From contig OX344751.2 of NCBI GenBank assembly GCA_947034885.2, forward strand, positions 8,680,001-8,744,000: a DNA stretch of 64,000 nucleotides. The letters are read 5' to 3'. This DNA comes from Thuidium tamariscinum (taxonomy: Eukaryota > Streptophyta > Bryopsida > Hypnales > Thuidiaceae). Every line of letters starts with the position of its first letter. Positions within the stretch are counted from its first letter, which is position 1. The notes below the pieces were generated by a model that worked only from the letters and a program-made list of their open reading frames with translations, ran no database searches and was not told the origin of the DNA. The position numbers were made by a program, and so were the translations under genes. Below are positions 1-61,583 of the stretch, in pieces.

Positions 1-280
1 ATTAAATTTAGTTTAAAGTACAAAAAAAACAATTTGTTGAAGTAGACTCTAGATCAATAAAAAAAGTAAATGAATGTGTTGAAGTAGGCTAGAGGTAATG
101 TAAAAGAATGTTCAAGTATAGAAAAAGATTAAATTGAGGTAAAGTACAAAAATTTATTGAAGTAAAATTGAAGCAAAGTAAAATTGTATATTGACGTAAA
201 CATGAGATGCACCTAAAGTACACTTTTTTTATTTTTACATAGAAGTTCATTTATAAAAATAAAAAATAAATCTATTGCTG
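1..280. other. AT-rich spacer without gene
   Basis: The stretch is AT-rich with short recurring words such as TTGAAGTA and AAAGTA, which suggests old, degraded repeat DNA. I see no coding frame or RNA gene in it. Confidence 0.6.
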
Positions 281-561
281 TGTGCTTGAGGTGTGCTTGA
301 GGTCACCTCAAGCACACCTCAAGCACACCTCAAGCACAATTTCATAAAAGTAAAAGAAAAACAAATTTAATTCCAAATTCAATGGGAACTACATTATTGT
401 GCTTCAGGTGTGTTTGAGGTGACCTCAAACACACCTCAAGCACAATTTGATAAAAATAAAAGAATAAGAAATTTAATCCCAGATTGAATGGGGAATAATT
501 TCTTGTACTTGAGGTGTGCTTGAGGTGTGCTTGAGGTGACCTCAAGCACACCTCAAGCACA
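281..561. repeat. Three near-perfect palindromes built from TGTGCTTGAGG units
   Basis: Three palindromes lie at about 281-338, 398-445 and 504-561. Each is made of the unit TGTGCTTGAGG (or TGTGTTTGAGG) running inward to a GGTCACC or GGTGACC centre and then back out as CCTCAAGCACA. They are separated by related AT-rich spacers that include the words ATTTCATAAAAGTAAAA and AATTC/GATTGAATGGG, so the whole block is an imperfect tandem array with a period of about 110-120 bp. Apparent short ORFs here are only the repeat read through. Each palindrome could fold into a hairpin of about 22 bp per arm. Function is unknown; it could be a satellite seed or the hairpin end of a transposon. Confidence 0.8.
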
Positions 562-720
562 ATTTCATAAAAGTAAAATTATGTTGCACATGTTGTTGAC
601 ACTTCCAACCTATACCAACTGTTGAGAAAATTAACTGGCACCATAATTTGTTTTGTCCCGCGTCAATTTGAAATTCAAGTTTCGTTTCCTGCACATTCTT
701 GAGGATTAGGGTTTCTTTGG

Positions 721-3700
721 ATGTTGTTCAACGGTTTAGGTGGTTCAGTGTGTGCGGTTGCTTGCGGTCTAATTTCGAGTAGAGTTTTGCAATTGCTAGG
801 AAACATGGCTGCTGAGAAGGTAACAATGTGGACGTTGGAGTCCGATGCGGTTGAAGCTGAGTACCTTGGGAAGCTCGATGTCGGAGGAGCTTCCACTCTG
901 GAGGCACTAAGGTTATATTTGGATTCCAACGAAGTGTTGGAGTGGCGTTTTGATTTTTGGGATGCCGAGGATAGACGGCGGGTGCGGAGCAAATTGGAGC
1001 GCCTCAACGGCTTCGGAAAGGAGGTTCATGTTATTCGGGCTTTGGAAGCAAATGGTAATGGCGTTGATGGCAACAAGCGCAGGTGACTGGGTGACGGGTC
1101 GTTTGCAGTGATCAACGTGGATCATCCACCCGAGGAAGCAATGCAGGTCGAGGAAGCTCCATTTAGGGTTGAAGTTGCAGCTGAAGATGCTGCTGCTCCG
1201 CCTGCTGGCTCGTCTAGGGTGAGTGGCAGCACTACCTACGAGGAGGTTGACAACAACCCTCTTCAGTCGAAGCTTCTCCCGAATGCAGTTACTGATCGAT
1301 ATTTGGAGAGAGCGAAGAAATTGCGCGTCGAGTTGAAGCGGGTTGCCTTGGACGACCACGATTGGTGGGTGAAGACCTTCGACCTCAATGGTTGTGGTGT
1401 CGTGAAGCTATGGTGCGCCGAGTGCAAGAAGGATTGTGGTGGGTGCAACACCGACTACACGAAAGCACAAATTGAAAACTTGTTCAACAATTTTCGTCGA
1501 TCGCACATTGTGAGTGTGTCACATGTTCGGAACTACTGTGCAGCCAAGTACGTCAATTTTGAAGATCACCCGCAGTCGGAGTCCAAGAATGGGCGGCCTA
1601 TCACCGTCACTCCCGAGGATCATAAGCGGCTGATTGCAGAGGGGGTTCAGATTATGGAGGCCGTCAATCTATTACTTCCGGAGGGAGTTAAAAAATTCAC
1701 AGTCTTGGGAAACTTGGCGGCCCTAGACACCCGCTGTTACTGGTTCAAGGTTAAGTGTCCCTACTGTAGGGAATTGATGGTCCTGTGCCCACCAAGGAAA
1801 ACGTTGGAGGCGAATTTGAGAAATCATCTCAGTGGTTTCAAACACTAGAGGGCTGTCGAAGATGCTGAGCAAGCTCGGAGGCAGCCGTTGAGGACGGGTC
1901 GACCTGGACGCCCCACCAAATCAAATGCAGGGAGCTCACTATCTACCCAATCCGACCTTCACTTGTGATTAAGCGGAAATGCATCAAATGGCGCAGAAGG
2001 TATGTCCGCAACCCTAGATCAGAACTCTCTTCGTTGTTTGCTTTGTTATGGCTTTCGTGGTCCAAATGTCAAATATGGACATCATTCCTACGTTATCACA
2101 GGACTGTTTGACGATCCTCACAGCGATGTAGTGTGGTATGCTGAACCGCATCTCACTGCTGCTATTGATCTTCAAGGTAAAATCGTGCAGGTCAAGGGGG
2201 CTCTCCGCCATAAACAATGTCATCGAATCTCTATGTCTGCTGTGCCCTTCCCTAATTTGACTTGCTCCATGTGTGCGCTCATACTGCTTGAGACAGACTT
2301 CAGACTTAGGGTTCGAAGAGAGGAGTACGCTCCTGTGAAAAGAGGGTACCGTAGCACCGTTGGAGGAATTCGGTTAGGGTACTTATCTGCAATAGAAGTG
2401 AATAGGCATAGTATGCAGCTCTCTAAGAAATTTAGGTTGCAGAAGTTACATTTTTGGCATGCTCGGACACGCATCGTCCAGTTGAAGGCCAAGAGGCCGA
2501 CTATGCGTGAGAGTGCTAAAAATGCTTCTGCAGATATGAACCTCATAAAATTCTGCAACAACATCATTAGTGCTCACAGGGTCGGAGCCTTTGGAGGCAA
2601 GGATGCATTGTGGGACTTCTTGAAGGACGTCGCACAAAATTTGAATAGGAAAGACTCGGGGAATCGATACTCTGAAAACACAAAGTGCTTTTCCCAGGCC
2701 ATGAGAATCTATGGTGGCTGCCGTCTAGGCGATTTGTTTTCCCTCAATTATGCAGGACCTAGCTATGACAGCATTCGGAGGGACAGTAGGAAGGGAGTTC
2801 TCTTCGTTCCAGGTGAGCATGCTGACATTTTCAGTTCAATTGCAAGCATTTACCATGATGCAAAAGTGGTGCACGGAATCTCTGGCCCCATTCCAGTTAT
2901 TCTTGCTGAGGATGAGACAAAGGTTTGTGGTAGGGTTTCCTGGGAGGCCAGATCAGACACTATGTTGGGTTTTTGTGGACCAAAGGAAAGTCACACTTGC
3001 ATAACAAATTACAAGCCTAAAGTAGGAGATGGTCACGCTGGGTATAATAAATTGATGGAGTCTTTCAAACTAGATAAAGTTGGGGGGTTTGCGAGGGTCA
3101 TTGTCGTCAACCCCTTGCATGAAAAACTGCCGCGACTAGTCCTAGCCGCTTCTTGTACCTGTAGGTGTTTCGATTTAGCCTGGGTTAGAGCACAGTGGAG
3201 ACGAATAGATGACCTGTGGACACAACACTGCTATGCTGCAGTAGGGCCCATAATCGGACACGCTAGTGATGGGGATTCCCAGAGGCGTCAGTTGATGCTG
3301 CAGGATTACCGTAGTTCGTTGGGGTCTCGGTTAACGGTTGAGTGGGAAGGCTGGATTTTTACCTCAGCATTGAATGTTGATGGGGAAGCCACAAGCCTGC
3401 ACGACTAAGATTATATACACAATGGTAAGAAATTGCTGAATGCGCTTGACAGCAATGTTCGGACATTGAGGTTAGGTGCCGATATTGCACTTCATCAGCA
3501 AATCTGTCAGGTGTTCAACCGCTTCATAGTAGATCAACATGGTTTGCTTCAGGAGGATTACGATAAGAAGGACCGCCAGAATTGGGCTAGCGCTCAACGG
3601 TTGTGTTCACGAAAGGTACGTGGTTGCTTACGGGATCTTTGTTCATCCTCCGATTTGCACCGTGAACGGACACTAGGGACGGAGATGTACTTAGAGGTAT

Positions 3701-5310
3701 GCGCAGACTACATTGATATTTTTTTATCCCCACGTGACAACATTCGCTCCCGAATTGTGAAAGCAGCAAAGGTTTCTTTCTTTTTCCGACTCTGGAAACT
3801 CTGGTTGAAGCACGGTAATCATGGTGTTTTGGAAAACACCGAGCCTGTGAATCCAAAGATATACTTTGTCAGTCAGCAATGTTTTCTGGATGTGCAATTG
3901 TCTTGTCATTTTGTTGTTCTTCTCATATGCCATTTCCGTGACAAGTTTCCCCACTTGAGTGTGCCTTTCCATTTAACTGGCAGCGATTCCTGTGAAGTTT
4001 TTTTCTCAAAGGTAGGGGGTATGGTGGGAATGGAGAGGGCATACGATTTCCAGGAGTTGCTGGGTGCTGCGAATACTGTTAACCACTTGTCGCAGATTGA
4101 ATATGGCGGGAATGGGATCAAATTTGGCAGGGCACATAATAAAATGAATAATATTTGGGCGAAGCTGCACAAGCTGCAGGACGATGAGGTGGAGCCAAAT
4201 CTTGGAGACTACAGTGCTATCTCCACTAACGAGGACGTCGTGGCAGCCTTGAAGGAGGGGTTGAAGGAGGCGTAGCCGGTGATAAACTCGTTGAACATGG
4301 CCCCTAATCCGCAGGCATCTGCAAAGAAGAAGGTTTGGTTTGAAAAACCCTGGATTCTAGAACGTGCAGATTCGCAGTCCTTTGCCTTCGCTGCTACTAA
4401 GAACTTGGTTCGAGGTGAAGATGGCGACATGGAGGTGCTAAGAGAAGATCTCCGACACAAGGAGGAGGACTTATGACGACGTGCAGAAGCTGGCGACCTT
4501 GAACCTCCGACACCAATAGAGGCAGAAGACGACTTGTGCGATGACGGAGTCCCAATACTGAGTGTTGTGGAGAGTGAGACCCGAGACATCGTCTCGGAGA
4601 TGCTAAGCCACCAAGAAAACCACGTTGAGGCAGAGAAAGTGCCAGTGAAAGTTGAACCCTTCGTAGAGTTCGATGGAAATCGAATTTTCAAGTCGACATT
4701 GGTGGGCCAGCTAAACGGTAATCCATTTCTATCTAAGGACAGGTTGACTCGTGTTAAGAAGTCACTATACTTCAACAACAGTGAGGATTATCTGAATGCG
4801 TCTCAGTCGTTGAATACTTGTTTCGTAGGCATTGGTTCGGATGTTGGTGTTTTTTTTGTGCAGCACTCCACAATTTCAAGGGCGTCTACAGTAACTGCAG
4901 CCAAGAAGAGGGGAAGGAATCGAGCATCAAAGACAGATCAACCAGTGTCCACTATGCAAGGTGTTGACGAGGGTACATGGTGGGTTGGACGCATTCAGAA
5001 GATGCGGAGGCGGGTTGGTGGTACTTCGTGGGGGGCGTTAAAGCAACCTGTTGACATTGCGAATCATGAAATCACTTCCGGTAAAAAAGGGATTGCAAGT
5101 TGTGATGTTCAATGCATCTTGCACTATTATACCCATGTCCCGGGTCAATACAAATTTAAATACAACTTATCAGATTCACAATGGATTGGACTGGAATCTA
5201 TAATAACGAATGTCACCCTCACTTATAATCCGGTGAATCAAGTATACAGCATGGACAGGTTCGAGGCCCTAAACCTAAATGAATATGTCTCTAATAATTC
5301 AATAGGATAG
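721..5310 (+). pseudogene. Decayed transposase-like gene: one frame, six in-frame stops, no frameshift
   Basis: Reading frame 1 stays coherent for 1,530 codons. It is interrupted by stops at 1084 (TGA), 1846 (TAG), 1966 (TGA), 3406 (TAA), 4273 (TAG) and 4474 (TGA), and ends at 5308. The best start is the ATG at 805 (AAACATGGC context); 721 is an upstream in-frame ATG. Parts in order: an N-terminal domain with WRFDFWDAEDRRR; a BED-like finger with Cys codons at 1414 and 1423 and His at 1504 and 1522; a second finger with Cys at 1756 and 1765 and His at 1825 and 1843; an AT-hook-like RTGRPGRPTK near 1891-1920; a large core (2002-4275) with candidate acidic residues in LAEDET, SDGDS and GSDSCEVFFS; an acidic linker; a segment with FKSTLVGQLNGNPFLSKDRL; and a C-terminal domain starting WWVGRIQKMRRR. 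I infer an immobile DNA transposon or domesticated derivative. I cannot name the family, and I see no introns or flanking terminal repeats. Confidence 0.72.
1414..1845 (+). other. Two BED-like zinc finger segments within the decayed gene
   Basis: The first finger reads Cys-x2-Cys (WCAECKKDC), then a long spacer and two His (RRSHIVSVSH). The second is Cys-x2-Cys-x19-His-x5-His (CPYCRELM to HLSGFKH), a spacing close to BED fingers of hAT-type transposases. A stop codon follows directly after the last His. The assignment is by pattern only. Confidence 0.55.
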
Positions 5311-6217
5311 TGGTTCAAGTTTTTGTGCTTTGGCCAATGTTGTGGCTGAATTGCTAATGTTATAGATTTTTTTTATTTCAATGTTGCTGACTTCATGATG
5401 TGGAGGAATCTGAAGTGCGAAGCTAAACAATATCTTCCTTACTTTTGTTGTGGAAATAGCTGCAGACTTGTGATGTTATTACTTTGTTGATACTTCGGAG
5501 CACTTTATTAAACCCCTTCTGTGTTGCTGAGAGAAGAATGTGTGACATTTCCAGATGAGCTTGCTCTTAATCTTAAACCTCTAAATCTGCCTATCTTGTT
5601 GTCTTCATGCCTTGCCACCATGAAGGCTTTGCAATTGTCCCTGATGCCTGCATAGTCAAATAAATTAGAAAACACCTAAACCTGTATCCTAAACCTATAC
5701 GCTTGGAATGTTTGAAGATGAAAGCGTGGTTTTATAACTTTTTTGATTAGCTTGAAACTACTTGAAATTGTATTCCCCTGACTTGACAGGCACAAGTCTT
5801 GTCATGTGACACACGAAGATTAGGGGCTGGGGAATGGATAGCTACGTAATTAGCCGTCGCCTCAGGGATCTCCATAGATCCCAACATGATTTTGAGTTGA
5901 TAGGTGGGAATTCTGGGGGTTTACGGACTATCTAGGAAATCATTAGAGCGCCGGTGCTTGTGGGTGAAATCATTTTGTCTCCTCATCCTCATGTGACAGT
6001 TCGGGGCGTCTTCTTCTGCGTAAGCTGATTTGTCTAGCGCCCAGGAATTCGCTCCTGCTTTAAATTTTGCTTGTGCTTTTCGCTATGAGATCTGTGCTCG
6101 TTGTTGCATATCGGCAAAGGCGCCAAACTTTAGGCGCCGTTGAACTTCACGTTTCTGTGCTTTCTCGTGCTTTTTTTTTCCTTGTTGTGATCGCTGGGTT
6201 TTGTGGGGTAGTTGGAT
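5311..6217. other. Spacer after the decayed gene
   Basis: No convincing coding region is present. The second half (about 5800-6217) is GC-richer and could be the promoter and leader of the small ORF that follows. I see no tRNA or recognised repeat. Confidence 0.5.
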
Positions 6218-6721
6218 ATGGAATCAATGGCGGGATCAAGTGGAGAAATAGTACTTAGTGATCAACTTTTGAACTTTCTCTTGGAGTACATTAGCGAATC
6301 GCCCTCTGCTTGGATTTGCTTTGGAAGGCGACATGTGAATAAGACGACGTTGTTGCAGGGGCTCGGTAAAGTTGCTTGTATTTTGCAGAACCTGAACAGG
6401 AATGCACGTTGTTCTCTCTATTACACTGCGCTGCGCCTTGCATCTTTCAATGTCGTTGGGTTGCAGGTGAGACCTACGAAGAAGGCAAGATTAGTAGCTG
6501 AGTCGTTCGACAAGAACATGTTGATCTTTGGCAAGTCCTGGAGAACCTCGCGCCCTATCCCGCCTCGTCTGCGAATGCTCCCTCTCTCGGAGCTTGGTGC
6601 TGCGGAGCTACAGGAATTGCGCCTTGTACTTACCAACGGGTGGCAGGTTGAAGTCCAAGTGTGGAGGGGAGATGACCACGCCAATTCACCAAATGTCTGG
6701 GTTACCCCAGCTTCTCGTTGA
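6218..6721 (+). CDS. Hypothetical protein, 167 aa, unrecognised
   Basis: An ATG at 6218 (a second in-frame ATG is at 6227) opens a 167-residue frame beginning MESMAGSSGEIVLSDQ and ending VWVTPASR. Codon content is balanced compared with the AT-rich surroundings, which favours real or recently real coding. The protein has a hydrophobic amphipathic N-terminal part (LLNFLLEYI), a basic middle (RPTKKAR) and a C-terminal part rich in LSELGAAELQELRLVL. I find no known domain. A GTGAGA donor-like site at 6467 (after TTGCAG) could mean the real gene is spliced. It lies 900 bp after the decayed transposase-like gene on the same strand and may be part of the same mobile unit, a separate lineage-specific gene, or a remnant. 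Confidence 0.35.
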   Translation: MESMAGSSGEIVLSDQLLNFLLEYISESPSAWICFGRRHVNKTTLLQGLGKVACILQNLNRNARCSLYYTALRLASFNVVGLQVRPTKKARLVAESFDKNMLIFGKSWRTSRPIPPRLRMLPLSELGAAELQELRLVLTNGWQVEVQVWRGDDHANSPNVWVTPASR

Positions 6722-8280
6722 GGTAAGACCATGAACCCTGTACTTAGCATATTGTTTTCGTTTTTGACTTTCTTATGCATTTTTGTTATACAGGCTCTCA
6801 TGCTCAAGTTTGCAAACATGCAGATCAGGAGCAGGAGCTTTTCGTTTGAGGAATCAAACATTTTGTATGCCCGGTGTCTAAGTTTTATACAAAAAGATTT
6901 TGGCTTTGTTTTCCTTGGACTGTGAACCCTAGGCTTCAAAATTCTTTTTTGGCACACTTGTGAATGTGAGTGATGTGTTTGTAAACACATACACATGAGA
7001 TTTCTGTGCAGCTCCTATGGTACTTTTGCATTGATTATAAACACATACACTTAAATTTTGTAAGTGTTTTACAGCCCCTATTTCACTCTTGCATTGTTTT
7101 GTCATTGCTTTTCATTAGTATTAAGGTAGGAGGTGTAGTAAGGGGTCCACTTGTTTCATGTATTGCATTCACAAAATATTTTGAATCCAATTTTCTCACA
7201 CCCAAAAAGTGATATGGAATTTAATAGAAGTGGTTTCATATTTTTTTAAACATTTTTGGATTACTTATGAATTTCCAAAGGCGTTAGGTTATAGGTTTGT
7301 ATTTACGACTCTAGGTCTTGTATGAACCATTCACTTGGAGTTCTTGGAAAAAAAATGTTGTATTTATAATAAACATAGGGTATAAAGAATGAACACCCAA
7401 AAAAATTTCAACTAAAATATAGGGTATATGAAATAGGCAAGTTTTAGAAATTTAGGTAAAAAAAGCCCCCTATAAATTACAAAAACTTACCTAAATAGCC
7501 TACACATAATAGGGGCTTGTTCGCACGTGATCAACAGAGTTCCTAAATAGTGCACCCCCGAGTAAAGGTACCTAATTCAAATTTAGACAATATATTAAAT
7601 TAACTTACAGCCCGGTTACCAAAGCTATTAAATGTCAAGCTAAACCTTCTAAGTACTTATAGGAAAATAAAAAATTTGGCATCTTATTTTTTTCTACCTC
7701 TAAAATAATGAGGAATTTCTTCCCACCCTATTTTATATATAAATCCAACTAAGATATATTACCAATGCTATTGTACATCTACAAAAAATATAAAATTTTC
7801 CTCCTATGAATTAAATTGATCCTATTTTTTTTATCTCACACTACTTTCTACTATCGGGAGTTTACCCCATAGCATTCTCTGCAATTTTTTTTAAAGATTT
7901 CGAGACCTTAGTGAAGTATAGAGAAAAAATTGATGTATTTACTACATGTGAATATGTTGAAAATGTTCTTTGAGTAGGCATAACTTTTTGCCCCTTCATT
8001 TTTTTACTTTATTTTTTAATCTCACAATTTGTACCACAACTTTGCCGAGATGTTTATAATTTCAGGTTTTGTCCAATGCATAAGAGAACCAACCAAAAAA
8101 AAGGGGAAATACTAGAAATCAAGCCCCAGGCATTAGAGATCCCCAAACTCACTAAATTTCGCTCATTTTCTACTTAATTTTTTCATGCCCTTTATATAAA
8201 TTTTAAAAAATCTTCCAAAAATGAACATTTGGCTAAAAACCTTAAATCTGTTCTGAGATCACTACTAGACATGGTCTCCA
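6722..8280. other. AT-rich spacer
   Basis: This region has many short A/T runs and frequent stops in all frames. I see no gene, RNA or clear element boundary. A TATAAACACATACACWTRA-like stretch occurs twice (about 6981 and 7036). Confidence 0.5.
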
Positions 8281-34629: not shown

Positions 34630-34846
34630 TAAGGGGAGGGAGTTCGCCGCAGGAGAGACCAGTAGTCGGCGCCCGTCTGTCGGTCGTAGCGGGAAGAATA
34701 TTGGGTACGCATGACGAACGACTTTCATCCGCGCCTCTACGACGGAGGCCTTCATCATGAAGATGATTCTCTTCATCATCCACCATTCGCGATGGGACAG
34801 ATGATAATTTTGTTCGTGGCTGCACTGAAAACTAATTGGTCCACTC
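34630..34846. repeat. 217-bp direct repeat flanking the copia element, left copy
   Basis: It matches 38869-39085 over 217 bp without gaps. The copies differ at about ten positions, almost all G-to-A or C-to-T in the right copy. It is separated from the LTR by only ACAAACC. See the right copy for the other side. Confidence 0.9.
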
Positions 34847-34853
34847 ACAAACC

Positions 34854-35415
34854 TGTTGTGATAAGAGAGAAAAATAGAGAGCAAAGAGATCCAAGCAATA
34901 CTACAAAGCAATACCATAAAATATTTTCAACTGTGTTCCACCCATAAGGATGATCCATCCCCCTATGAAGATAGGCTGTTTGTTTGTTTGTTTGGTTGGT
35001 TGTTTGTTTGGATGTTTGTTTGGATGTTTGTTTGGATGTTTGTTACGTTGAGATCTCTCGGACCGTGAGTCCCCCGGGTGCGTGTTTGGTACCGTCGGAA
35101 AGCCCTCGGCGAGGAGGGGTGCACGGGCTTTGATTCATGGTGTTCCAACCTACAGCATGAAAGTTATTGAATTTTGAAGTTTCTATACATTAAAAAAATT
35201 AGAAAATTATTTTAGCTGTTGTTTTCCCGGACCGTGGCAACGGCACGGGCCACCCTAGTCTATATGATAAGATGGGTGAACCTATTGAGGCTTGTTACAT
35301 ATACATAACTCCCAGTAGGAGTTGAGTTTAACCACCATTTGGATTGGCAGTAACTGGTGTTCGCTTAGTTTATAGATAGCATCTTTAGTCTATGGATAAG
35401 ATCTTTATTTTAGCA
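34854..35415 (-). repeat. Left LTR (3' LTR), split by a Helitron-like insertion
   Basis: The two parts, 34854-34957 and 35259-35415, together make 261 bp and match the right LTR with about eight differences, mainly transitions. The break falls inside the word GATCCA|TCTATATG, which is intact in the right LTR. Confidence 0.93.
34958..35258 (+). mobile_element. 301-bp non-autonomous Helitron inside the LTR
   Basis: The insertion starts TCCCCCTATG and ends CCACCCTAG, sits precisely between host A and T, and leaves no target duplication, as shown by the uninterrupted right LTR. About 10 bp before the CTAG end is a hairpin with arms GGACCGTG and CACGGGCC. TC start, CTRR end, a short subterminal hairpin and A|T insertion are the four Helitron marks. 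The body holds a TTTG-rich microsatellite (about 34979-35043) and a GC-rich middle. It has no helicase gene. Confidence 0.85.
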
Positions 35416-35591
35416 CTCCTCCTCGAGCACTAAGTTACTACTAAAAAATTTTAAGCTTTGTAAACTAGTGATTGCTATGGCACCTAAGAGTAACTCCTCC
35501 TCAATCACTAGGATACCTCGTTAAAAACTATCTCTGAACAGAAAAACCTTCATAGTAAGGAAAAATGTGCAGAGTATAGAAAAGAGTGTAT

Positions 35592-36113
35592 CTATATGGA
35601 AGTCAGCTCATGTAGGAGCTTCATTCCGGCCTTTTGGACAAGTCTGCGATGTGTGTAAGCAGGGAGGGCCTTCGTGAGGAGATCAGCAAGGTTGTGAGCA
35701 GACTCAATTTTCTTGACTTTGATTTGCCCGTTGGAGATCAGCTCCTGAGTGAAGCTAAAAATTTGAGGATCAATATGCTTGATACGGTCACTCTTGATGA
35801 AGCCCGTGCCTACCTGAGCTACACATGCGGCGTTGTCTTCAAAGACGATGGTTGGTGTGGATGCCACGTTCAGGCCGCATTGTTGCATGATGATCCTGTG
35901 TAGGTTTTGGAGCCAAACAGCTTCCCGAGTTGCTTCATGAAAGGCAATGAGTTCGGAGTGATTCGTTGATGTCGCGGTCACTGTTTGCTTGACGGACTTC
36001 CACGAGATCGGGGCATTGTTTTGGAGGAAGATATAACCGGTTTTGTGACTTGCCAGAAACCGCATTAGACTTGTATCCTGCGTCTGCATAGCCCACAATC
36101 TCTGATGTTCCAT
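35592..36113 (-). pseudogene. copia RNase H, C-terminal part
   Basis: It contains TNHSELIAFHEATREAVWL, FEDNAACVAQV and KHIDPQIFSF, the family's RNase H core and its end, up to LLTKALP and a normal stop. It overlaps the previous frame near 36075 through a frameshift within the GYADAGYKS segment. Confidence 0.85.
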
Positions 36114-36756
36114 CCTTCATGTAGTGAAGTCCTAAATCTTCGGTGCCTCGTAAGTATCTGTAGAGGTGTTTCACCGCGCTCCAATGTCGGGTTGATGGTT
36201 TTTGGTTGTGCCTTGCTAGCACGCTAACCGCGAAGGAGATGTCCGGCCTGGTAAAAGTTGAGAGATAGAGTAGTGCTCCTACGGCCGCAAGGTAACGTGT
36301 TCTATCAAACTCCTCCTCCTCCTCCTCGCAAGGATGATAAGGATCATCTTTGGTTTTGCTTCGGCCGATCATTAGAGTTGACAAGGGGCTGGCCTTGTCC
36401 ATTCCAAAGCGCTTTAATACCTTCTGAGTATAAGTGGTTTGGTGTAGAAATAAACTTCCATCCGGTAGATGTTCAACCTGGAGTCCTAGACAATAGGAGG
36501 TCTTACCCAGTAGCTTCATTTCGAAGCGGTCAGTAAGCAAGTTTACTACATGCAAGCATGTAGCCGCGGTTCCTATGAGGTTCAGATCATCTACGTACAC
36601 GGCTACTATGGCAAATCCTGTGGTATCACGAAGGGTAAAGATGCAAGGTAGACTTTGATCATGTTGAAACTTATGATCAATAAGAAAGGAATGAAGATGG
36701 GAGTACCACATCCGGCCGGCCTGAAGGGTCCTGATGCGGGAGTGATGGGGCCACAA
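35935..36756 (-). pseudogene. copia reverse transcriptase, C-terminal part, and start of RNase H
   Basis: It begins at the deletion junction with AGRMWYSHLHSF and carries the catalytic YVDD motif (IVAVYVDDLNLIG), SYCLGLQVE, the run of five Glu in the thumb region, and RPDISFAVSVLAR. The fingers and most of the palm before YVDD are missing. The frame is lost after GYADAGYKS. Confidence 0.9.
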
Positions 36757-37472
36757 ATGTCACCTTGAAGTCGTTGGAGCGGAGGTGGAAGCTCGCTTGG
36801 CAGCTTCCAACGTGAAGGCTTCAAAATCAGCTCTCCTTGGGCACAGGCATCACACGCTCCAACCTTGTTTGCATCACTAGTACAAACCTCATGTCCCGCA
36901 AGTAGGGGCAACATCCTTCTGAACATCGTAGCTCCTGGGTGACCCATGCGTCCATGCCATAAGTTGGTCTTATTTGGAGCGATCACTGAGTATGAAGAGC
37001 CTCCACTAGGTGGAACAGTTTTACGTCTGCTAGGCAGACGGGAGATTACAAGCTCATACAGGCCACTTGCTCCGCATTGTACGGTGGCAAGGCAAATTTG
37101 CTCTTGCCAAAGGTCAAGTGTCTCCTTTCCGTCCTTAATCGAGCTTAGGACATGAATACCATTTGCCTAGAGGTCTCGAAAGCTGATCAGGCTTTGGTTA
37201 GCCTCCGGCACGTACATGGCATGGTCACAAATGAGGGTGGCGCCTCCAAGCAGTGTGACACGTGTCTGGCCCTCACGGAACTTGAATGTCCGTCTTCCAG
37301 CTACTGTGCTTAGTTCACAAGTCTGCCAGGTACCAGTTTCGGAACCATGTCTCGAAAATTCAAAGTACTTTGGATCCCTAAGGATCGTGTGAGTGGATCC
37401 ACTATCAATCAGGACTATGTCCTCATCTGCCTCTAACTTGCTAGATGTGTGATAAATTGACGTGATTGTCAT
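36606..37472 (-). pseudogene. copia protease, GAG-pre-integrase and truncated integrase
   Basis: The protease active site reads VLIDSGSTHTILRD. After an in-frame TAG at 37167-37169 the same frame continues into LWHGRMGHPGATMFRR (GAG-pre-integrase) and LQGDICGPITPASGPFR, the very start of the integrase catalytic domain with its first Asp. There the sequence jumps into reverse transcriptase in another frame, so the rest of the DDE core is deleted. Confidence 0.9.
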
Positions 37473-37544
37473 GTAGTTTTCGGGGTCAATTCCATCTAGG
37501 GATGGAGCATCTAGGGAGTGAGACTCTCTCAGACCCTTCCTAAA

Positions 37545-38516
37545 TTATTGTAGCTCCTTGTATATCTTAACTAGATACTCATCGGCCCGACAATTTTGTA
37601 CTACATGGCCTGGTCGGCCACACTTTTGACATTGACCGGTTCTACAATCTTTAGATGGATGACCGAAATGACCACACTTGCTACATTCGGTGGACCGACA
37701 ATTTCGTTGCAAGTGACCAGGGCGTCCACACTTGTGGCAATTGCGAGTTTCTGACCTAGACTGAAAGCTAGAAGAATTGTGATCAGATAACTTATCATTT
37801 GATTTTGGAGGGTATGGTTGGTTGGGCTGTTGTCGCCTCCACTTCTGGTTGCCCCGTGGTCTCCTAGTCGGTAGCTCCGTGTTGTTCACCTCCCTAGCCG
37901 GTTTGCGTTCCTCATTCTTCAAGAGCAATTGTTGTTCCTTTTCAGCTAGTAGCAAGTAGGACATTAGTTCCGAGTGTGTTGTAAACCTCATGTTGCGATA
38001 TTGCTGAGCTAACAAAGCAGAAGCAGAGGGAAAAGTTTGGAGAGTCTTATCAATTAGCTCCCGTTCGGTGACCGTCTCCCCGCATAGGCGCAGTTGAGCA
38101 ACTATTCGGTGCAACTCAGCATTGAAGGAAACCAAGTTGGTGAAGTCCAAGACTCGAAGCGCCACCCAATCGTTGCGTGCTTGCGGGAGAAAAATGGTTC
38201 TCTCATGTTGGAACCTGGCTGCGAGTTGTCTCCATAGTTCCGCCGGATCATCAATCTGGATATACTGCTCCTGGAGTGCAATATCCAAGTGTCTTCAAAG
38301 AAGAACCAGCGCCCAACTTTTTGTTGCAGTTGATATGCCCGCCGGTATTGGAGAAATCAGGGCACCTTCCCAACCCTCCGCAGTCATATGTGTCCTGGCA
38401 TTGATGCTCCACCTCATATAGTTGTTGCCGTCAGCCTCCAATGGTCCAAATAACAGCGGTTGCAAGCGTGGAGCCTTCTTCTTCTCTAACAAATTCTTTG
38501 AGGTTGATGCAGCCAT
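37545..38516 (-). pseudogene. copia gag with three CCHC zinc knuckles
   Basis: The start is MAASTSKNLLEKKKAP, and the typical gag features AELWRQLAARFQHER and ELMSYLLLAEKEQQLL are visible. Three CCHC knuckles follow in a row: CHKCGRPGHLQRNC, CSKCGHFGHPSKDC and CQKCGRPGHVVQNC. Copia gag usually has one. A TGA around 38293 breaks the frame after WALVLL. The frame continues past TAA at 37545 in the same phase toward the protease, so both breaks are point nonsense changes. Confidence 0.9.
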
Positions 38517-38604
38517 GGTCTTGCAAGTCTAATAGCAAAAACAAAAGAAAGGACAAAGGCAATTGAACTCTAAGGAAGAGAGACTAGCTATCGTGCTGAT
38601 AACG

Positions 38605-38865
38605 TATTGTGATAAGAGAGAAAAATAGAGAGCAAAGAGATCCAAGCAATACTACAAAGCAATACCATAAAATATTTTCAACTGTGTTCCACCCATAAGG
38701 ATGATCCATCTATATGATAAGATGGGTGAACCTACCGAGGCTTGTTACATATACATAACTCCCAATAGGAGTTGAATTTAACCACCATTTGGATTGGCAG
38801 TAACTGGTGTTCGCTTAGTTTATGGATAGCATCTTTAGTCTGTGGATAAGATCTTTATTTTAACA
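38605..38865 (-). repeat. Right LTR (5' LTR), intact 261 bp
   Basis: It is uninterrupted and matches the combined left LTR. The outer CA end gives TGTTAAAATAAAG at the element's 5' end. The inner edge has changed from TG to TA on the plus strand (TATTGTG against TGTTGTG). Confidence 0.93.
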
Positions 38866-38868
38866 TAG

Positions 38869-39085
38869 TAAGGGGAGAAAGTTCGCCGCAGGAGAGACCA
38901 GTAGTCGGCGCCCGTCTGTCGGTCGTAGCGGGAAGAATATTAGATACGCATGACGAACGACTTTCATCCGCGCCTCTACGACGGAGGCCTTCATCATGAA
39001 GATGATTCTCTTCATCATCCACCATTTACAATGGGACAGATGATAATTTTGTTCGTGGCTGCACTGAAAACTAATTGGTCCACTC
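38869..39085. repeat. 217-bp direct repeat flanking the copia element, right copy
   Basis: A gap-free copy of 34630-34846 begins three bases after the LTR end. Differences are nearly all G-to-A or C-to-T in this copy, as expected from deamination of methylated cytosine after the region became silent. Beyond it the two sides share a further CACAAACC. Confidence 0.9.
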
Positions 39086-39351
39086 TCAGGGCGTCACAAA
39101 CCAAACAACTCTGAAGACGGAACCATTCTAAAAAAGCAACATAAGTTAACTTGAATTTGAATTGATTATTGCACTCCTCACCATACAGATCTATAGCCAA
39201 ATAAGCCAACAACCTCATCAATCTAAACTCATTTCTTTTGGAGAAATCCATTGTACAAATGCAAACATTTTGAGGTTTGATGAATCTAGTCTCCTAGAAT
39301 CAAAAGTCTGAAAAACATCCCCTTGTAATGTTCAAGGATTAACCTGAAATA

Positions 39352-39695: not shown

Positions 39696-41413
39696 GAAGT
39701 AGGAGGTTCTTGAAAAGAGGTGAAATTTTAGAGAGGGTCACCATGGAAATCATCCTTTTGGAAAGAGTGCAAATCATCTACTTTAAAATTTTCTAAAGCA
39801 ATGATTGGAGATCAAACTACTATGCAAGAATTCTCCTTTCATGCACAAAATTTCAATTATAAACAATTGCACTTCTATCTTACATGGTAGAATTCTTTGT
39901 CATCATTTGACACTAAGGGCCTTATTGAATTAAACTAATTGAAGTATGTCCCAATAAATTTTCTTTGAAATGCAAATGGAATTTGCATTTGACCCGAGTT
40001 GTCTTGTATATTTTAAGTTTTTGTTGGATTAGTTATAGATTTCTTTAGCTAAAATGCAATGCAATGGGCACTAAAGCATCCACCTCTTGAAATGTTCATT
40101 GTGAGTATATTGCTAGTATAATGAAAAAGCAACATGTACAAATAGTGATTGTGCATTTGTAGAGGTACTAGATGATTTTACAACCCAAGTCTTTGAAAAC
40201 CTCCTATCTTAACTTTTAGAACATGTTTTACAATCCAAATGTATAGGCACAACTTCTAATTCATCCATATGCAACCTACTTGATTTAAGTTAAGGTGCCA
40301 ATTAAATCAAATGAAAATTTATTTTCACTGTGGTGTTTTAGTGGCCAAAAAAATCACTTGTTAAACAACAAGAATGAACCATTTGTGCTTCACCTTCATA
40401 ATTTTCAAGATTTTATAAATAGAAATAGAAATTTTATAATCTATTTAAAAAAAAATAGATCCAAGATCTTTTTCATCTTTTTATTAATAATAATTTTTTC
40501 ATATGCAGCAAAAACTCCATATATTCTTAAAAAAAACCAATAAAATTCAATGATCAAATTTATTTAAGAAGGATATTTTTAAAATTTGGAATTTGGAATT
40601 TGGAAAATTTAATTTCTAATTATCACGCCAAGTATTTTCCTTTTCTATGCAACCCTAAAAAATATAATATTAAGTTTTTAAGAAAATCCAATTTATTATT
40701 TTATTTTTCTTCAATTTTCAAAAGTTATTGACAATTATCATGTTGAAAGTTATACAAATATTAAGATTCAAAATGTACCAAAAATTTAAAAATTAAAATT
40801 AAAATTAGTAAATTTTTATTGTACAAAGCTAAAGTTTGCTAAAGATTGTAATATGTTATAGGTAAGGATTGTTATAAATATAGATGCCAAATGACTACAT
40901 TTTTTTAATGATTTCATAATACATCCAAATTTGGCTTCACATTCTTCATGCATACCTTAGTGAACCATTTTATAAAATGTTATTTCAATTACATGAGTAG
41001 ATACTAGTAGAATTAATCATATCAACTTGATTGGATATGAAAAGTTACATATGGAAATATATTAAGGTATGCATTGTTGTTTTACTAGGAGAACTTTTTG
41101 TTTTTGTCTTTTCACAAAGTAAGCAACTTTATATAACACTTTTGTTTTGTTGCTTGACATCATCCTATACAAAAATAATATTGCTACACTTTTGGTATCC
41201 AACTAGTAATAAATTTAAGCAACTTATATCTTGTGGATTTCTTCCTTTGTAAACTTAAATAAGTGTACAAAATTTTAGAATACAAAAAGAAGCTCTTCAT
41301 TGTGGTGATTCTTTATATAATGAAAATACAATGTGAAGTGGTGCTAAAACAAGCTTCTAAAATATCCATGAAGAATCAATCAAAACTACTATACAAGTAG
41401 TAACTCATGTAGG
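39696..41413. other. AT-rich repeat-derived spacer
   Basis: Part of this (about 39700-39960) matches, in inverted orientation, 46550-46660 (shared GGAGAYCAAACTACTAT and CACAAAATTTCAA), so it belongs to a dispersed family. The remainder is AT-rich without a gene. A short hydrophobic frame at 41031-41252 is probably chance. Confidence 0.5.
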
Positions 41414-42067
41414 ATGACAAAGAAAGAATGTAAAAAAGGAAACTCAACAAATCTTGCTCATAACAAAGAGTCATGTGGCTTGGCTTGTCTCAAAGAAGTT
41501 GAAGTTCAAAATACCAATGATAGGAAAACATATGTAGATAATAACCCTACAAATATTCAAAGTACTTATTCAACACCACGAGAATCGGCTCTTGAAATAC
41601 CTAACAATTCAAAATACTCTAATGAATCTACAAATAGACCGCATTCATTACCTCAAATACAAACTACAAAAAAACAATGTTATCAACCTCTAAGATCATC
41701 AAGAAGAATTCTTGAACGACAAGATACACCGCGACCAAGATCAGAAACACCACCTATTATTAGAAGAGAATCATTTCAATTAAAAGTGCATTCAAAATCA
41801 AAACTTAAAGGGATAGCTAGTCAATTTTTAAAAGCAATTCAAAAAAAGAGCAAGTCAAGATCAAACTCACAAATGTCCCATCATCGCCTTCAACATAAAA
41901 ATTGGAGCTCACGCATTAGTCCAAGGACTTCAATGGGACAATATAGAAACATTCCTAGATCACCAAAAGGATACTATCAATACAATTGTACAGGTCCAAA
42001 ATATAAATGTAACAATCATGAGTGTAATGAAAAAAGATGCAAATCAAGGTTTACATCTCATTACTAA
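41414..42067 (+). CDS. Hypothetical protein, 217 aa, basic, with Cys-rich tail
   Basis: An ATG in the context AGGATGACA opens 217 codons in a region where stops are otherwise frequent, so the frame is unlikely to be pure chance. The protein is rich in Ser, Lys, Arg, Asn and Gln. It has a basic centre (LKGIASQFLKAIQKKSKSRS) and a C-terminal Cys cluster (YNCTGPKYKCNN followed by HECNEKRC). I recognise no family. It could be one exon of a lineage-specific gene, a degenerate transposon ORF or an orphan. No neighbours support a function. Confidence 0.35.
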   Translation: MTKKECKKGNSTNLAHNKESCGLACLKEVEVQNTNDRKTYVDNNPTNIQSTYSTPRESALEIPNNSKYSNESTNRPHSLPQIQTTKKQCYQPLRSSRRILERQDTPRPRSETPPIIRRESFQLKVHSKSKLKGIASQFLKAIQKKSKSRSNSQMSHHRLQHKNWSSRISPRTSMGQYRNIPRSPKGYYQYNCTGPKYKCNNHECNEKRCKSRFTSHY

Positions 42068-44902
42068 GTATTTACAATTGCCAATATTAATATTCTCACT
42101 ACTCTTACATATTTGTATTACAATTCTCAAAAATTTATTATAAAAGGATCATTTTCAAAGAATTAGAATTAATTTTTGTAATTAGTTAATACATCATCTT
42201 GTGGAGGAATATGTATTCTTTTTTCAATAATCAATAGATTTCTTAATTCACAAGAATAGCGAGCTCAAAAGCTTTCTATAATGAAAATACATAATAATTT
42301 GAAAAAATTAATATATTTGTTACAAAGACCAAATACAAATAAAATAATATATCAGATTGTAAATTATAATTGCAAATACAATACAAGTATCATATTTATA
42401 TACATTATACCCATTTTTTAGTAGTTGCTTCTTCATTGTTTAGCAAGGAAAGAATATAAGTTATATACTAAATGTACATATAACTTCTTAACACTGCATC
42501 ATAATATGAATTCTTAATATTATATCATACTATATTATATATATCATATCATATCATATTTGAATATTAAAATGATAAATGTACTAAATGTTTTAAACTT
42601 GAGGATGATTGCAGGGCATGGGGATTGTGTATAATCTCATAGCAACAAAAAAATTACTTTCTATATTTCTATACATTTTTTGGATAATTTTTTTAACACA
42701 AATTCAAAAGTATAACACTTCATTTTGAACATTTATTTGCAATCAATCCAAAACTTAGAGAAATTAACTTATAAATGTTCAAAACCTTCGAGTGTTTTTT
42801 TTGGATGTGTGGACAAGTTCCTATGATGTCAAATTTTACTAAAACCTTTTAAGCCTTTTTGGGGGGTACAACAATATATTTAATCTTGGAAAATACAATA
42901 TTTTTCTCAATTGATGTTCAAGGAAAAAGATGCCTATCAAATTACAAAATGATTGAGCCTTAGCCACAACTACAATAATAATAAAAATCTTCAAAATATA
43001 ATTTCTTAATCTCTTACCTTAATAGAGTATATTTCCTTCTATATAGAAAAAATTAAATTATTAATTCCATTTTGATGATGTAAAATTTATGAAGATTCTT
43101 CGTTTAGGGCAATCATGGTTTTTTCATTAAAAATTACAAATAGGATTAATTTATTAATCTAATTTTCACAAATTTACAAAACAAACACATTTATAGTGTT
43201 TGAATTATATATTGCAACAACCTCATCATCAAGTTTGGTATGTTTCAATTCAATTTTAAAATTTATGAAACATTTCATTTAAAAACTTCCTTCCATCTAT
43301 TAACTACTTCTCAACAACTTTTTTAAAAGAATAAGAACCTAAAAAATCAAATTATTTATTGATGAATTTTTTTCCTAGTTTTCCAATTCAATTCTTTTCT
43401 ATGAAGATTTTAACCTCAAAACTTTGTAGTGCAAAAAGTTTAAATCATAGGATTCAAAGTTTGAAAAACTATTGTTGTAAGGTACAAAACATTGGTCTTT
43501 TCTTTTTACTTACTAGGTCAAATTTTTTGAATTTTTTTCATCACATTTTCATGCAATTTTAATGCAATATCTAAGTGAAAATTCACAATTTATTGCATTG
43601 TAATTCTTTGCACTAGAAATGACTACTAGGGAGTGTTTGAGATAGAAATTAGAGTCATAAACTTTTAGAGGGTAAAATGTATAGTTAGTCATTTTCACAT
43701 TTGAAGTTAAATATTCAAAATACATCAATCAATGAAGTAACCAAGGGATTTCAATCTATGATAGTCATTGAATTTAAGGGATTTTATTATTATAATATCA
43801 ATCTTAATGTAGACTTTTGAGGCAATCCTAATCCATCAAAGTATTAATTTTTTATTTTAGCAATTAAGGTGATTACAATTGTTAGGATTTTTATTGTTGT
43901 AGATTGTTTCATTTACTAGATTTAGATTTGTACATTTTAGCAATATACTCCATTTATGACCTAATTATAAATATAATCATAACAAAAGGTTCACTTTTGT
44001 AACTATGATTATTTGAACTATACTTTGAAGTTATTATATATTCAATCATGCCAATAGACATTATTATTAATAACTATGTACACCATAACTAATGTCATAA
44101 ATAAATTATGGAAGTTGATATTGTAGCTACCAATATTTACTATAGTTATAATTACAATTTATAAAAAGTCATCATGCAATAAATTACAAAGGACTTTCAT
44201 GTAACTATTTGAACATTTTGAATCCTTAAAGAGGCTTCATCCTTTCCATGGTTTACTTTGCCAACTATTGATTAATTTCAAAAGTCTCACAATCATTATG
44301 AAGTCTTTAGGTGAATTGAATAAAAATTGTAAATATTGTTGAAATCTTATACTTAAATTCAAGATTTTATATGATAATATTTTTTAATTCTTTTTGAAAG
44401 GGTTTAAAGGCATATGCTCAAGAATGTTTTCAATATAACTAATTTAATGAAGTGATGAGCAACATTCAAGGAGAAGGAAAGATGATAAGTCAAATGTTGT
44501 TGTATGATCAATAACCAATATTAAGATACAACTCACGTTAATTGTATCTTGCTAGCTCTTTGTAGAAATTTTAACCCTTAATTGGATTTTTTGCTAGTTA
44601 TTATTGCAATTTCAAGTTTGCAACTATATAATTTGACCTTGACATACTAGTGAGGTGGTCATAAGCTCAAACCCAAGATTTGGTAGGGTGCTCCCAATCA
44701 TAAGCCACCTAAATATTAACGGTGGGTGGTTAAATGACCTCATCATTTTATTGGGACTTTAGAATTTTTTAGGGGAAAAAATATGTCAATTTTTTGGTAC
44801 TGAATCTACCTCCTAACAAACTCATCAAGTATGAAATTTGCCTTCTAAAGGTATGAAATTTGCCTTTTTTATACTAACAATATTAGGTTGTGGAACCAAC
44901 TA
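42068..44902. other. AT-rich spacer
   Basis: Long AT-rich DNA with no frame, RNA or clear element end that I can support. Confidence 0.5.
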
Positions 44903-45472
44903 AGGGAGGAGGCTCACAAACTGGTTATTTAAGGGCTAGTCCATCTTTTTCATGTATTTTCTTGGATGGAAATATTTTTAGCTTATTTTTCAGTAAAAGA
45001 AAAAGAGATGAAGAATCTTACACAAGTCGTTTCATAATTTTTAGAGCATTTATGAATTACTTATGAATTTTCAAACACAATCTAATATAGGGCCCTATTT
45101 GTGATTAGTAGGCCTTGAAAACCCACACATGCTTGGTTTGGAAAAAAATATGGCTTTGTTCAGAAATTAACATTGCAACATGTAAAAAGTAATTGAGATG
45201 GTTTCAAAATGCGACCCTTTTTTAATTTGAAATAAATGCTTGAATCAATCATTATTTCAAATTTTTTAACATTTGTAAGAAGATAGTTGAACTACCAATT
45301 CTTATTTTGAATAAAATTAGTAGACACCTATCTACTTAGTTGAAGAAGGAATCCATTTTGGATCTTAAACCATCCATTGAAGAAGTAAAAAACAACTCTT
45401 ATCATACTTTGATGTAATTAAGAGTCCATTTTTCTACAATTAGGAATCCATTTCAGAGCCTCCTACTAGACA
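44903..45472 (-). repeat. Dispersed repeat, about 570 bp, GGAGGCTC ends
   Basis: It starts GGAGGCTCACAAACTGG and ends CCATTTCAGAGCCTCC, so the tips are short inverted repeats. The reverse complement aligns with 46778-47400 and with the outer parts of 55128-55992. Shared landmarks are ACACATGCTTGGTTTGGAAA, CATCAAAGTATGATAAG in complement, and AGTCGTTTCATAATTTTT. It is non-coding and resembles a MITE or deletion derivative. Confidence 0.8.
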
Positions 45473-46777
45473 ATTTGAGAAGCCTGCCACCATTTTCGAG
45501 CCTTCTCCCATATAAATGATAGTGCATTCGTACCTAAGTACTTAGCTATCTAATGAATTCACATGCCATCTAATGTGGCATGAACTTAACAACATTACTA
45601 TGGCCATTTATCAATCTTTTCCAAATGAAGCCGATTTCAAAATGTTTTGTCTACTCTTATCAATTAGAGGTCTTTATAGCCCATTATGAAATTGCAATTC
45701 CACTTTTAGGTTACAATTAATAAAAAGAAGGGCATAGCCACCAAAATTGCAAGCAACAAATCTACCATGAACAAAGGCCATTTCATTTTGACAACCATAG
45801 CATGCTTAAAGAAGACAAATTTCACAACTGTTTAGGTAATTTGATAGCACAAGTAGGAACATCTTCAAATCAAACGAATAGATTTGGCTACATATTCATA
45901 TAAAACTTGGCATCATTATAGACGTTGAGTCTACATTATAGATTTGTAGAATATAGAAAGTAACATACAATACAATATCTCGTTTGTGGTTAACATAGAA
46001 GATGGAGTTTCTAAGTACAACCTAAGGTAGAATCACCCGTAACTGATCATTTAAGGTATTCTAGACATGATTTAGTATAGTGCACGGCAAAACAAATATT
46101 TTCAATTGCAAAAACTTTGGTAATTTTATTACATGAATTGAAATTACTATGAATTTTAGAAGGCAAAAAGTGTACTAGACCCAATGCCAATCACTATAGA
46201 GTCTTCTAATTTTGATCACACAAAAAACTATTTTCTTACTCGTTCCTTCCTACTTTCTTGCACACTACTTTGGGACATATGCCATGAACTTTTAGTCCCA
46301 ACTTTAAAAACAAGAAAAAAAAACATTCTAGCCTTAGTTGGAAATAGGACCATCAACACGTTGGCTATAGGGTGCCAATTGGTTATAGGTGGTTCTACCT
46401 TAGTAGGATAAAACTATGAGGCTTGGGTAGTTCAATAATCTCCAACAAACACTTCATTTACACCAGTCTTTCAAATTGGAATTAACCTTGGCTTAACACT
46501 AGAAGGACACTATAAATACTTAGTTTTTGATCGATGATAGAGAACTTTTGTATGTAAGACAATATTGTAATTGTTCATCCTTGAAATTTTGTGCAAAAAG
46601 GAGAAATCATGAATAGTAGTTTGGTCTCCAATAAATACTTTTGAATTTTTTTTATAGTAGATGATCTACACAGTTTCAATAACGGCATGATTTCTATAGA
46701 AACCAGCCCATCCTTTAGGGGTTAACTTTCTTTCCTCTTCTTGTGATTGGATGCATTCTGAATGCTATTTGACTCTT
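45473..46777. other. Repeat-derived spacer
   Basis: About 46180-46660 matches, in inverted orientation, parts of 39700-39960 and of 56000-56420 (shared words around TAGTCCCAACTT). No gene; the 75-codon frame at 46184 lies in this repeat. Confidence 0.5.
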
Positions 46778-60970: not shown

Positions 60971-61031
60971 ATAGGAAGAAAATTAAAATCAACATTTAAC
61001 TCAAGTTGTTTCATATTTTTTGAACCTTTAA

Positions 61032-61579
61032 CCTTGGAGCGCTCCAATGTCCAATTTCTGGACAATGTGTAGATTGAAAATGAGATTTTTTTTCCTCATT
61101 GCAACTTGGATGAAAGTCATCCAAATTTATATCGATAATTTATAATGTTGTGGTCCCATTCAAAGGGTTGGATTCAGTGTTAGTAGAGTACATATATGAT
61201 TCTAAAATTACAAATGTGGAAGAATGTCAAGTGGTTGACTTGCATTGACTCTAGTTCAACGTGGAATTGCAAAAATGAGGTCACAGAATCCAAGAATACA
61301 AAAATTCCAAGAACTCACCATCTAAAGAGGATCTCATTGCAAATCCATCCAACAAAATTGCATGTAATTGAATTTAGAAGGAATTTAGATTTTTCCTTTC
61401 AAAATTTGTAGAAAATATTGGTGATAGCATTGGTGAATCTAACTATTAAGGATAGATTCTAAAATCCAAATCCTACAACTTTCATTTACATCTCAATTTC
61501 AAATTATTCTTTCCAATAGTTCTTTATGATGATTTTTCGAAAATTGTCAATTTTGGAGATAGGTTTGGACACTTAAGGG
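61032..61579 (+). mobile_element. 548-bp TTAA-flanked element, complete copy
   Basis: It starts CCTTGGAGCGCTCCAATG after TTAA (61028-61031) and ends ACTTAAGGG before TTAA (61580-61583). The tips resemble the 240-bp element at 18591 (CCCTTGAGCG and CTTAGGGG). Non-coding. TTAA bounds suggest piggyBac-type movement, but a TA duplication cannot be excluded. Confidence 0.65.
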
Positions 61580-61583
61580 TTAA

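Follow-up and report, generated by a model that had tools for sequence, protein, structure and literature searches.

Stop codons with few frameshifts in the transposase gene of a large moss DNA transposon: a probable case of decay by deamination of methylated cytosine

How can a reading frame of more than 1,500 codons come to hold six stop codons and yet keep its register from end to end? The question is raised by a 64,000-nucleotide stretch of the genome of the moss Thuidium tamariscinum (assembly GCA_947034885.2, contig OX344751.2; C3:8680001-8744000), hereafter the window, in which a forward-strand frame runs from position 721 to 5310. A first-pass annotation had noted that the stops would fit deamination of methylated cytosine in a silenced transposon, a point that it called weak by itself, and had taken the absence of indels to imply either recent silencing or active repression by point mutation. 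The stops lie where that annotation had put them, namely TGA at 1084-1086, TAG at 1846-1848, TGA at 1966-1968, TAA at 3406-3408, TAG at 4273-4275 and TGA at 4474-4476, all on the forward strand and with no change of frame; the terminal stop is TAG at 5308. The remaining five frames of 721-5310 hold 55-102 stops each, against an expectation from composition of about 85. Taken as a whole, the sequence evidence makes it highly probable that the frame belongs to a once-functional DNA transposon which has been decaying by deamination of methylated cytosine since a recent insertion.

The element bearing the frame was delimited by comparison with its closest relative in the same genome, a copy at locus L010. 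The two are 95.6% identical over -476 to 7559 (the base before the window being 0), and on both sides the homology halts abruptly and the flanks differ. The element in the window is 8,038 bp long, from -475 to 7562 (C3:8679525-8687562), so that 476 of its bases precede the window and its body within the window occupies 1-7562 on the forward strand. It has short, imperfect terminal inverted repeats (left CCCGGGGGGTGCACT, right CTCGGGGGTGCACT), of which the 3' repeat, read on the reverse strand, lies at 7549-7562. The target-site duplication of 8 bp differs between insertions; it is TAAAGGTA in the window, where its right copy occupies 7563-7570, and CGCCCACA in L010. Beside it, two more bases also match in L010, for which an automatic scan gives 10, and one more in the window. 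Because the homology ends abruptly, the ends are inverted and the 8-bp duplications differ, the window copy and L010 represent separate insertions of the 8,038-bp element rather than a segmental duplication; inverted ends and insertion-specific target duplications are what is expected of a class II cut-and-paste transposon. Within the window alone we found neither a second copy nor a pair of inverted ends, the latter because the left end lies outside it. The automatic scan paired the ends in one of 20 loci (L010), and a stretch resembling the 5' end of the window's element was found by blastn in seven of the other 19.

To see how widely the pattern is shared, we searched the genome (363 Mb, 19 contigs) with the 479-residue piece encoded by 1969-3405, which gave 90 matches including the window's own, and the copies ranked 2-21 were fetched as 10-kb loci. 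In these 20 copies tblastn found 84 stops and 10 frame changes, a frame change being a break between matched stretches in different frames. The frame changes are confined to eight copies, and 12 are in one frame from end to end; the relatives that keep the frame do so at identities of 48-93%. Thus the shortage of frameshifts, which the first-pass annotation had singled out as the real signal, recurs across the family; by itself the window is modest evidence for stops without frameshifts, and it is the other copies that make that evidence strong. A nucleotide alignment of all 21 copies contains 92 stops in 76 codons, 16 of which are hit in two copies, and the stops are not unevenly spread along the open reading frame (ORF; P = 0.18 by Kolmogorov-Smirnov test). 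L010 has five stops, none in common with the window's six, and nine of these 11 arose by a C:G-to-T:A change. Four of the window's stop codons (376, 416, 1185 and 1252, numbered from 721) are also stops in the distantly related copies L018, L016, L017 and L018, respectively, which are probably recurrent hits at mutable codons.

The tblastn alignments bear on where the gene begins. Among the 19 more distant copies, 18 first align at codons 16-33 and one at codon 10, so the ATG at 805 (aacATGgctgct), which is codon 29 of the 721 frame, is more likely than 721 to be the start. The broken transposase ORF would then span 805-5310 on the forward strand (1,501 codons and a stop), open back to 721 and with its frame kept in relatives.

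We next consider the changes themselves. The alignment with a relative that the first-pass annotation had proposed, made here between the ORFs of the window and L010, shows 154 transitions and 13 transversions, and nothing in it shifts the frame; the claim that there are no indels holds for the reading frame and fails for the sequence, as this pair has two 9-nt in-frame gaps. When the differences were polarised with eight other copies, C:G to T:A accounted for 34 of the 53 changes that could be decided in the lineage of the window, and for 43 of the 69 in that of L010. Six sister pairs together gave 769 transitions, 110 transversions and 11 gaps, including four frameshifts, over the ORF. This ratio of transitions to transversions exceeds the 150:62 seen when six other pairs of repeats within the window are compared (P = 2e-8), namely those of at least 150 nt and at least 80% identity among the 22 listed there. 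Over the ORF and flanks of the six sister pairs, the C-to-T change per site was 0.184 at CTG, 0.153 at CAG, 0.125 at CGN and 0.081 at CCG; outside CG and CHG it was 0.044 at CAH, 0.036 at CTH and 0.026 at CCH. Both strands are hit (C/T 358, G/A 411). On both strands, then, C-to-T change at CG, CAG and CTG is the dominant form of decay in this family, the enrichment expected of deamination of 5-methylcytosine. High change at CG and CWG, intermediate change at CCG and little elsewhere is the pattern to be expected under plant CG and CHG methylation. In Arabidopsis lines, an excess of mutations at methylated CG and CHG sites and in transposable elements is described in the available text of PMC8145854.

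The stops follow the same spectrum. Over the six pairs, 39 of 50 stop-making changes were C:G to T:A, and the 92 stops comprise 50 TAG, 27 TGA and 15 TAA against 53.0, 27.5 and 11.5 expected from the context rates (P = 0.53); this is a consistency check, as the rates come from pairs that include 12 of the same 21 copies.

A spectrum so dominated by C-to-T change could also be read as active mutational silencing, in which an enzyme drives C-to-T change in repeated copies, as repeat-induced point mutation (RIP) does in some fungi. RIP resembles what we see here in that C-to-T hypermutation of repeats makes stops without indels, and the excess of transitions is large (12:1 over transversions in the ORFs of the window and L010, and 18:1 in the pair L025/L028), with C-to-T change per CWG site about 40 times the transversions per site (397 of 2,360 CAG and CTG sites versus 110 of 27,024 ORF sites). 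However, RIP favours CpA, and in this family the rate at CAH is far under those at CTG and CG; the context is CG and CWG, with CWG above CCG as in plant CHG methylation. Moreover, transitions climb together with transversions between pairs (from 54:3 to 170:31), as they would in gradual decay and not in one saturating event. We know of no RIP in plants, and a literature search on RIP with plant or moss transposons returned, in the text available, a fungal review only. We therefore regard a RIP-like process as very unlikely. A variant, in which an active step coupled to CG and CHG methylation (such as inefficient repair or the action of an enzyme) lifts C-to-T change in new copies above the level of spontaneous deamination, seems to us similarly improbable; if it were true, methylation would itself silence by mutation, destroying open frames but preserving their register. 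The first-pass inference from missing indels thus divides: recent silencing is supported, and active repression by point mutation is neither supported nor required, given a context of plant methylation, no preference for CpA and stops that, at 5.5% of changes against 6.8% expected, are no commoner than the overall C-to-T load would produce.

Decay by deamination of methylated cytosine needs to be interpreted with some caution, as several observations weigh against it. Of the 167 differences, 45 could not be polarised, and among the other 122 there were 33 changes from A to G or from T to C. The choice of ranks 2-21 of 90 favours well-kept copies. Across the 21 copies, how many stops a copy holds shows no correlation with its CpG, CWG or GC. 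Synonymous transitions are above the neutral level (304 of 757, or 0.402, versus 0.316 expected; P = 3e-6), and part of the divergence would therefore have arisen under selection. Lastly, the ORF as a whole is not depleted of CpG (observed/expected 0.77), the mean of its six 1.5-kb segments exceeding 105 of the window's 115 other segments for CpG and 72 of 115 for CWG. As there is no CpG loss over the whole ORF, deamination would have been active for a short time only; its footprint is visible by comparison of sister pairs and not as whole-ORF CpG loss. A different composition was observed in the ORF regions of L019, L022, L023, L027 and L029, where CpG observed/expected is 0.14-0.20 and CWG is normal (0.96-1.08), and where the frames, with 0-6 stops (none in L023), are still largely open; CpG, and not CHG, has been strongly lost, as though this lineage had spent a long time in a CG-methylated state.

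Why, then, are frameshifts so few? In the six sister ORFs there are four frameshifts to 879 substitutions, compared with 12 to 212 in the six window repeat pairs described above (P = 3e-6), and the shortage persists with transversions as the clock (4/110 versus 12/62; P = 0.003). Within the same elements, the best-scoring alignment of each sister pair gave 11 gaps in 27,024 aligned ORF bases against 36 in 15,002 bases elsewhere, so that gaps are about six times rarer per kb in the ORF. In Arabidopsis control lines, the accessible part of PMC8145854 gives indels to substitutions as 8 to 31 and 10 to 60, with almost all indels at simple or tandem repeats.

One alternative is that this is ordinary neutral decay, in which no special mutational process takes part and six stops came without a frameshift by luck. 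In a single copy, six stops would precede any frameshift with a probability of 0.003-0.028 at the window's own ratio of indels to substitutions and 0.0002-0.09 across all ratios tried, and the frame was chosen for looking odd; the adjacent copia-type element likewise holds its frame through three stops before breaking. Luck of this kind would have to be repeated in the 20 other copies, and is opposed by the frameshift rates just given and by the strong context bias. We consider it very improbable indeed.

The opposite alternative is that a protein is still being produced and is under selection, because readthrough, editing or splicing gets past the stops. Consistent with bypass are the frame kept in relatives, the rarity of gaps in the ORF, and the level of non-synonymous change in the sister pairs, which is about 0.69 of the neutral value (411/304 versus 0.616/0.316). 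However, stops stand near their neutral proportion (0.055 versus 0.068) and are scattered over their 76 codons. Introns around the stops, which would have undone the first-pass reading, are unlikely: no intron-like GT..AG pair (in-frame, 60-400 nt, AT-rich and T-rich) spans any of the six, and the 12 relatives noted above run through in one uninterrupted frame. Organelle-type U-to-C editing of stops is described for ferns and hornworts in the available portions of PMC4915041 and PMC12548569; the locus studied here is nuclear and lies beside RAD5-, kinase- and importin-type genes. Bypass of the stops is scarcely credible.

In the six sister pairs, the ratio to silent changes is close to two thirds of the neutral one for missense changes and likewise for stops, which suggests that something like a third of the silent divergence dates from a time of selection and that the remainder arose without constraint. 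The following course of events would account for these results. The frame is that of the transposase gene in a large cut-and-paste DNA transposon, which would have remained functional until roughly when this copy inserted, because the frame is kept and silent changes are in excess. After insertion, coding constraint would have been lost, because stops and missense changes are reduced alike, as if the divergence were partly selected. Silencing by CG and CHG methylation would then have placed 5-methylcytosines whose spontaneous deamination converts CAG, CGA and TGG codons to stops and never generates indels. Frameshifts would be few because the frame was selected until insertion, because little time has passed since, and because coding-type sequence acquires few indels, as the element's own non-coding parts suggest by comparison. 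On this evidence the deamination of methylated cytosine proposed in the first-pass annotation is well supported and is the most likely cause of the stops; it is an ordinary process, which shows with unusual clarity in this transposon family.

The kind of decay is known; what is new is a family that Pfam does not name and a clean separation of stops from frameshifts. Silenced plant transposons decaying by deamination of 5-methylcytosine show the same C-to-T change at CG and CHG on both strands, with CCG lower and few indels. Unlike in other such cases, the decay is legible here across 21 long ORFs, from sequence alone, as stops with few frameshifts. The family offers a clean yardstick from nature: its frames are long and began in a known state, so that stops, missense changes, silent changes and indels can be counted in them, and its context rates seem to record how the DNA was methylated. 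Were the C-to-T rate to exceed that of other methylated cytosines, this would point to mutational silencing in plants.

The encoded transposase is large and is recognised by no curated Pfam model. Pfam searches with the window protein in five pieces gave nothing above the cut-off and two unrelated sub-threshold matches; the read-through protein matched no family at E up to 10; and 13 family members gave six scattered families, the best at E = 0.021 and none a transposase. There was no PDB match for the piece 1969-3405, nor any with the family profile, and a single-sequence fold, with a predicted local distance difference test score of 35, was not used. Searches of viral contigs, GTDB genomes and phages found no relatives; a pattern match in a viral contig (L001) was rejected as chance (best E 2.1).

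In the protein, CxxC/H-rich stretches are followed by GRPGRP at 1897-1914, after a CxxC...HxxxxxH stretch with CPYC at 1756; we take these two to be AT-hook-like and finger-like, respectively. Then come, on the same forward strand, EDETKV, SDGDS, DYIH and SCEVFF. In a 1,576-column protein alignment of 13 of the 21 copies, the acidic residues of this series, and two others beside them, are invariant or nearly so: the putative first catalytic Asp (D703 in EDETKV, 2911-2913) and the putative second (SDGDS, 3268-3276; D824, with D822 nearly so), D869, I871 and H872 of the D(2)H motif DYIH (3409-3420), directly 3' of the stop at 3406, and the putative catalytic Glu (E1064 in SCEVFF, 3994-3996). The order is D, D, D(2)H, E, with spacings of 118, 46 and 191 residues.

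This order is that of the P superfamily signature, D-D-[C/D](2)H-E, a type shared in kind with other superfamilies. The available text of PMC8230255 describes this arrangement for P-element/THAP9 transposases as well, and the 191 residues between D(2)H and E come close to the distance from D339 to E531 in the fly P transposase; the window's transposase differs in its length of about 1,500 residues and in a D-D spacing of 118 against 72 in the fly protein (D230, D303). Among the Pfam matches there is no P or THAP model, and there is no PDB match at all. KDZ (Kyakuja-Dileera-Zisupton) transposases are large and have a Pfam model, which cannot be among the matches of the read-through protein, as that protein has none at E up to 10. 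The hAT transposases carry an inserted RNase H domain, and no hAT transposase or dimerisation model matched the read-through protein or the 13 members. An 8-bp target duplication, as in the window's element, is made by Zisupton and usual for hAT according to the accessible part of PMC12730594. We have accordingly placed the family in no superfamily. In the literature searched, including the portions available of PMC8145854, PMC8230255, PMC12730594 and PMC7466625, we found no description of this transposon family, and we make no claim that none exists.

Two further features lie within the element. Upstream of the transposase, at 281-578, is an array of three palindromes with TGTGCTTGAGG units, a period of about 106 nt and similar AT-rich spacers; no other part of the element has as many transversions per kb between the window and L010 (33.6/kb), and the palindromes are possibly transposase binding sites. 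Downstream, on the forward strand at 6218-6721, is a second ORF of 167 residues, with no Pfam match at E 0.01 and with tblastn relatives in 12 of the 20 fetched copies, downstream of the transposase in every one. It is uninterrupted in the window copy, whereas the transposase carries six stops. The non-coding parts of the element have a GC content of 0.29-0.42, and the transposase ORF 0.48.

Around the frame, the window is nuclear plant-type DNA with a RAD5A-type UBA domain and SNF2 and RING pieces; the further neighbours are a protein kinase, an importin-beta N-terminal domain and a weak Cpn60 match. The nearby RAD5-like gene pieces yield ordinary domain matches, which bears on the possibility of assembly error. 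The copia-type element lies on the minus strand at 34630-39088, with long terminal repeat pieces that are 95.5-98% alike and differ in order between its ends, one of which carries an array of TGTTTGTTTGGA. Its three in-frame stops fall over 38528-36606, and the breaks in its frame, placed by eye from the overlap of frames, come near 36755 and 36070. Two AT-rich regions, 40001-46500 and 61001-63500, have CpG observed/expected of 0.04-0.31 and CWG of 0-0.27, and are perhaps the end state of deamination in both contexts.

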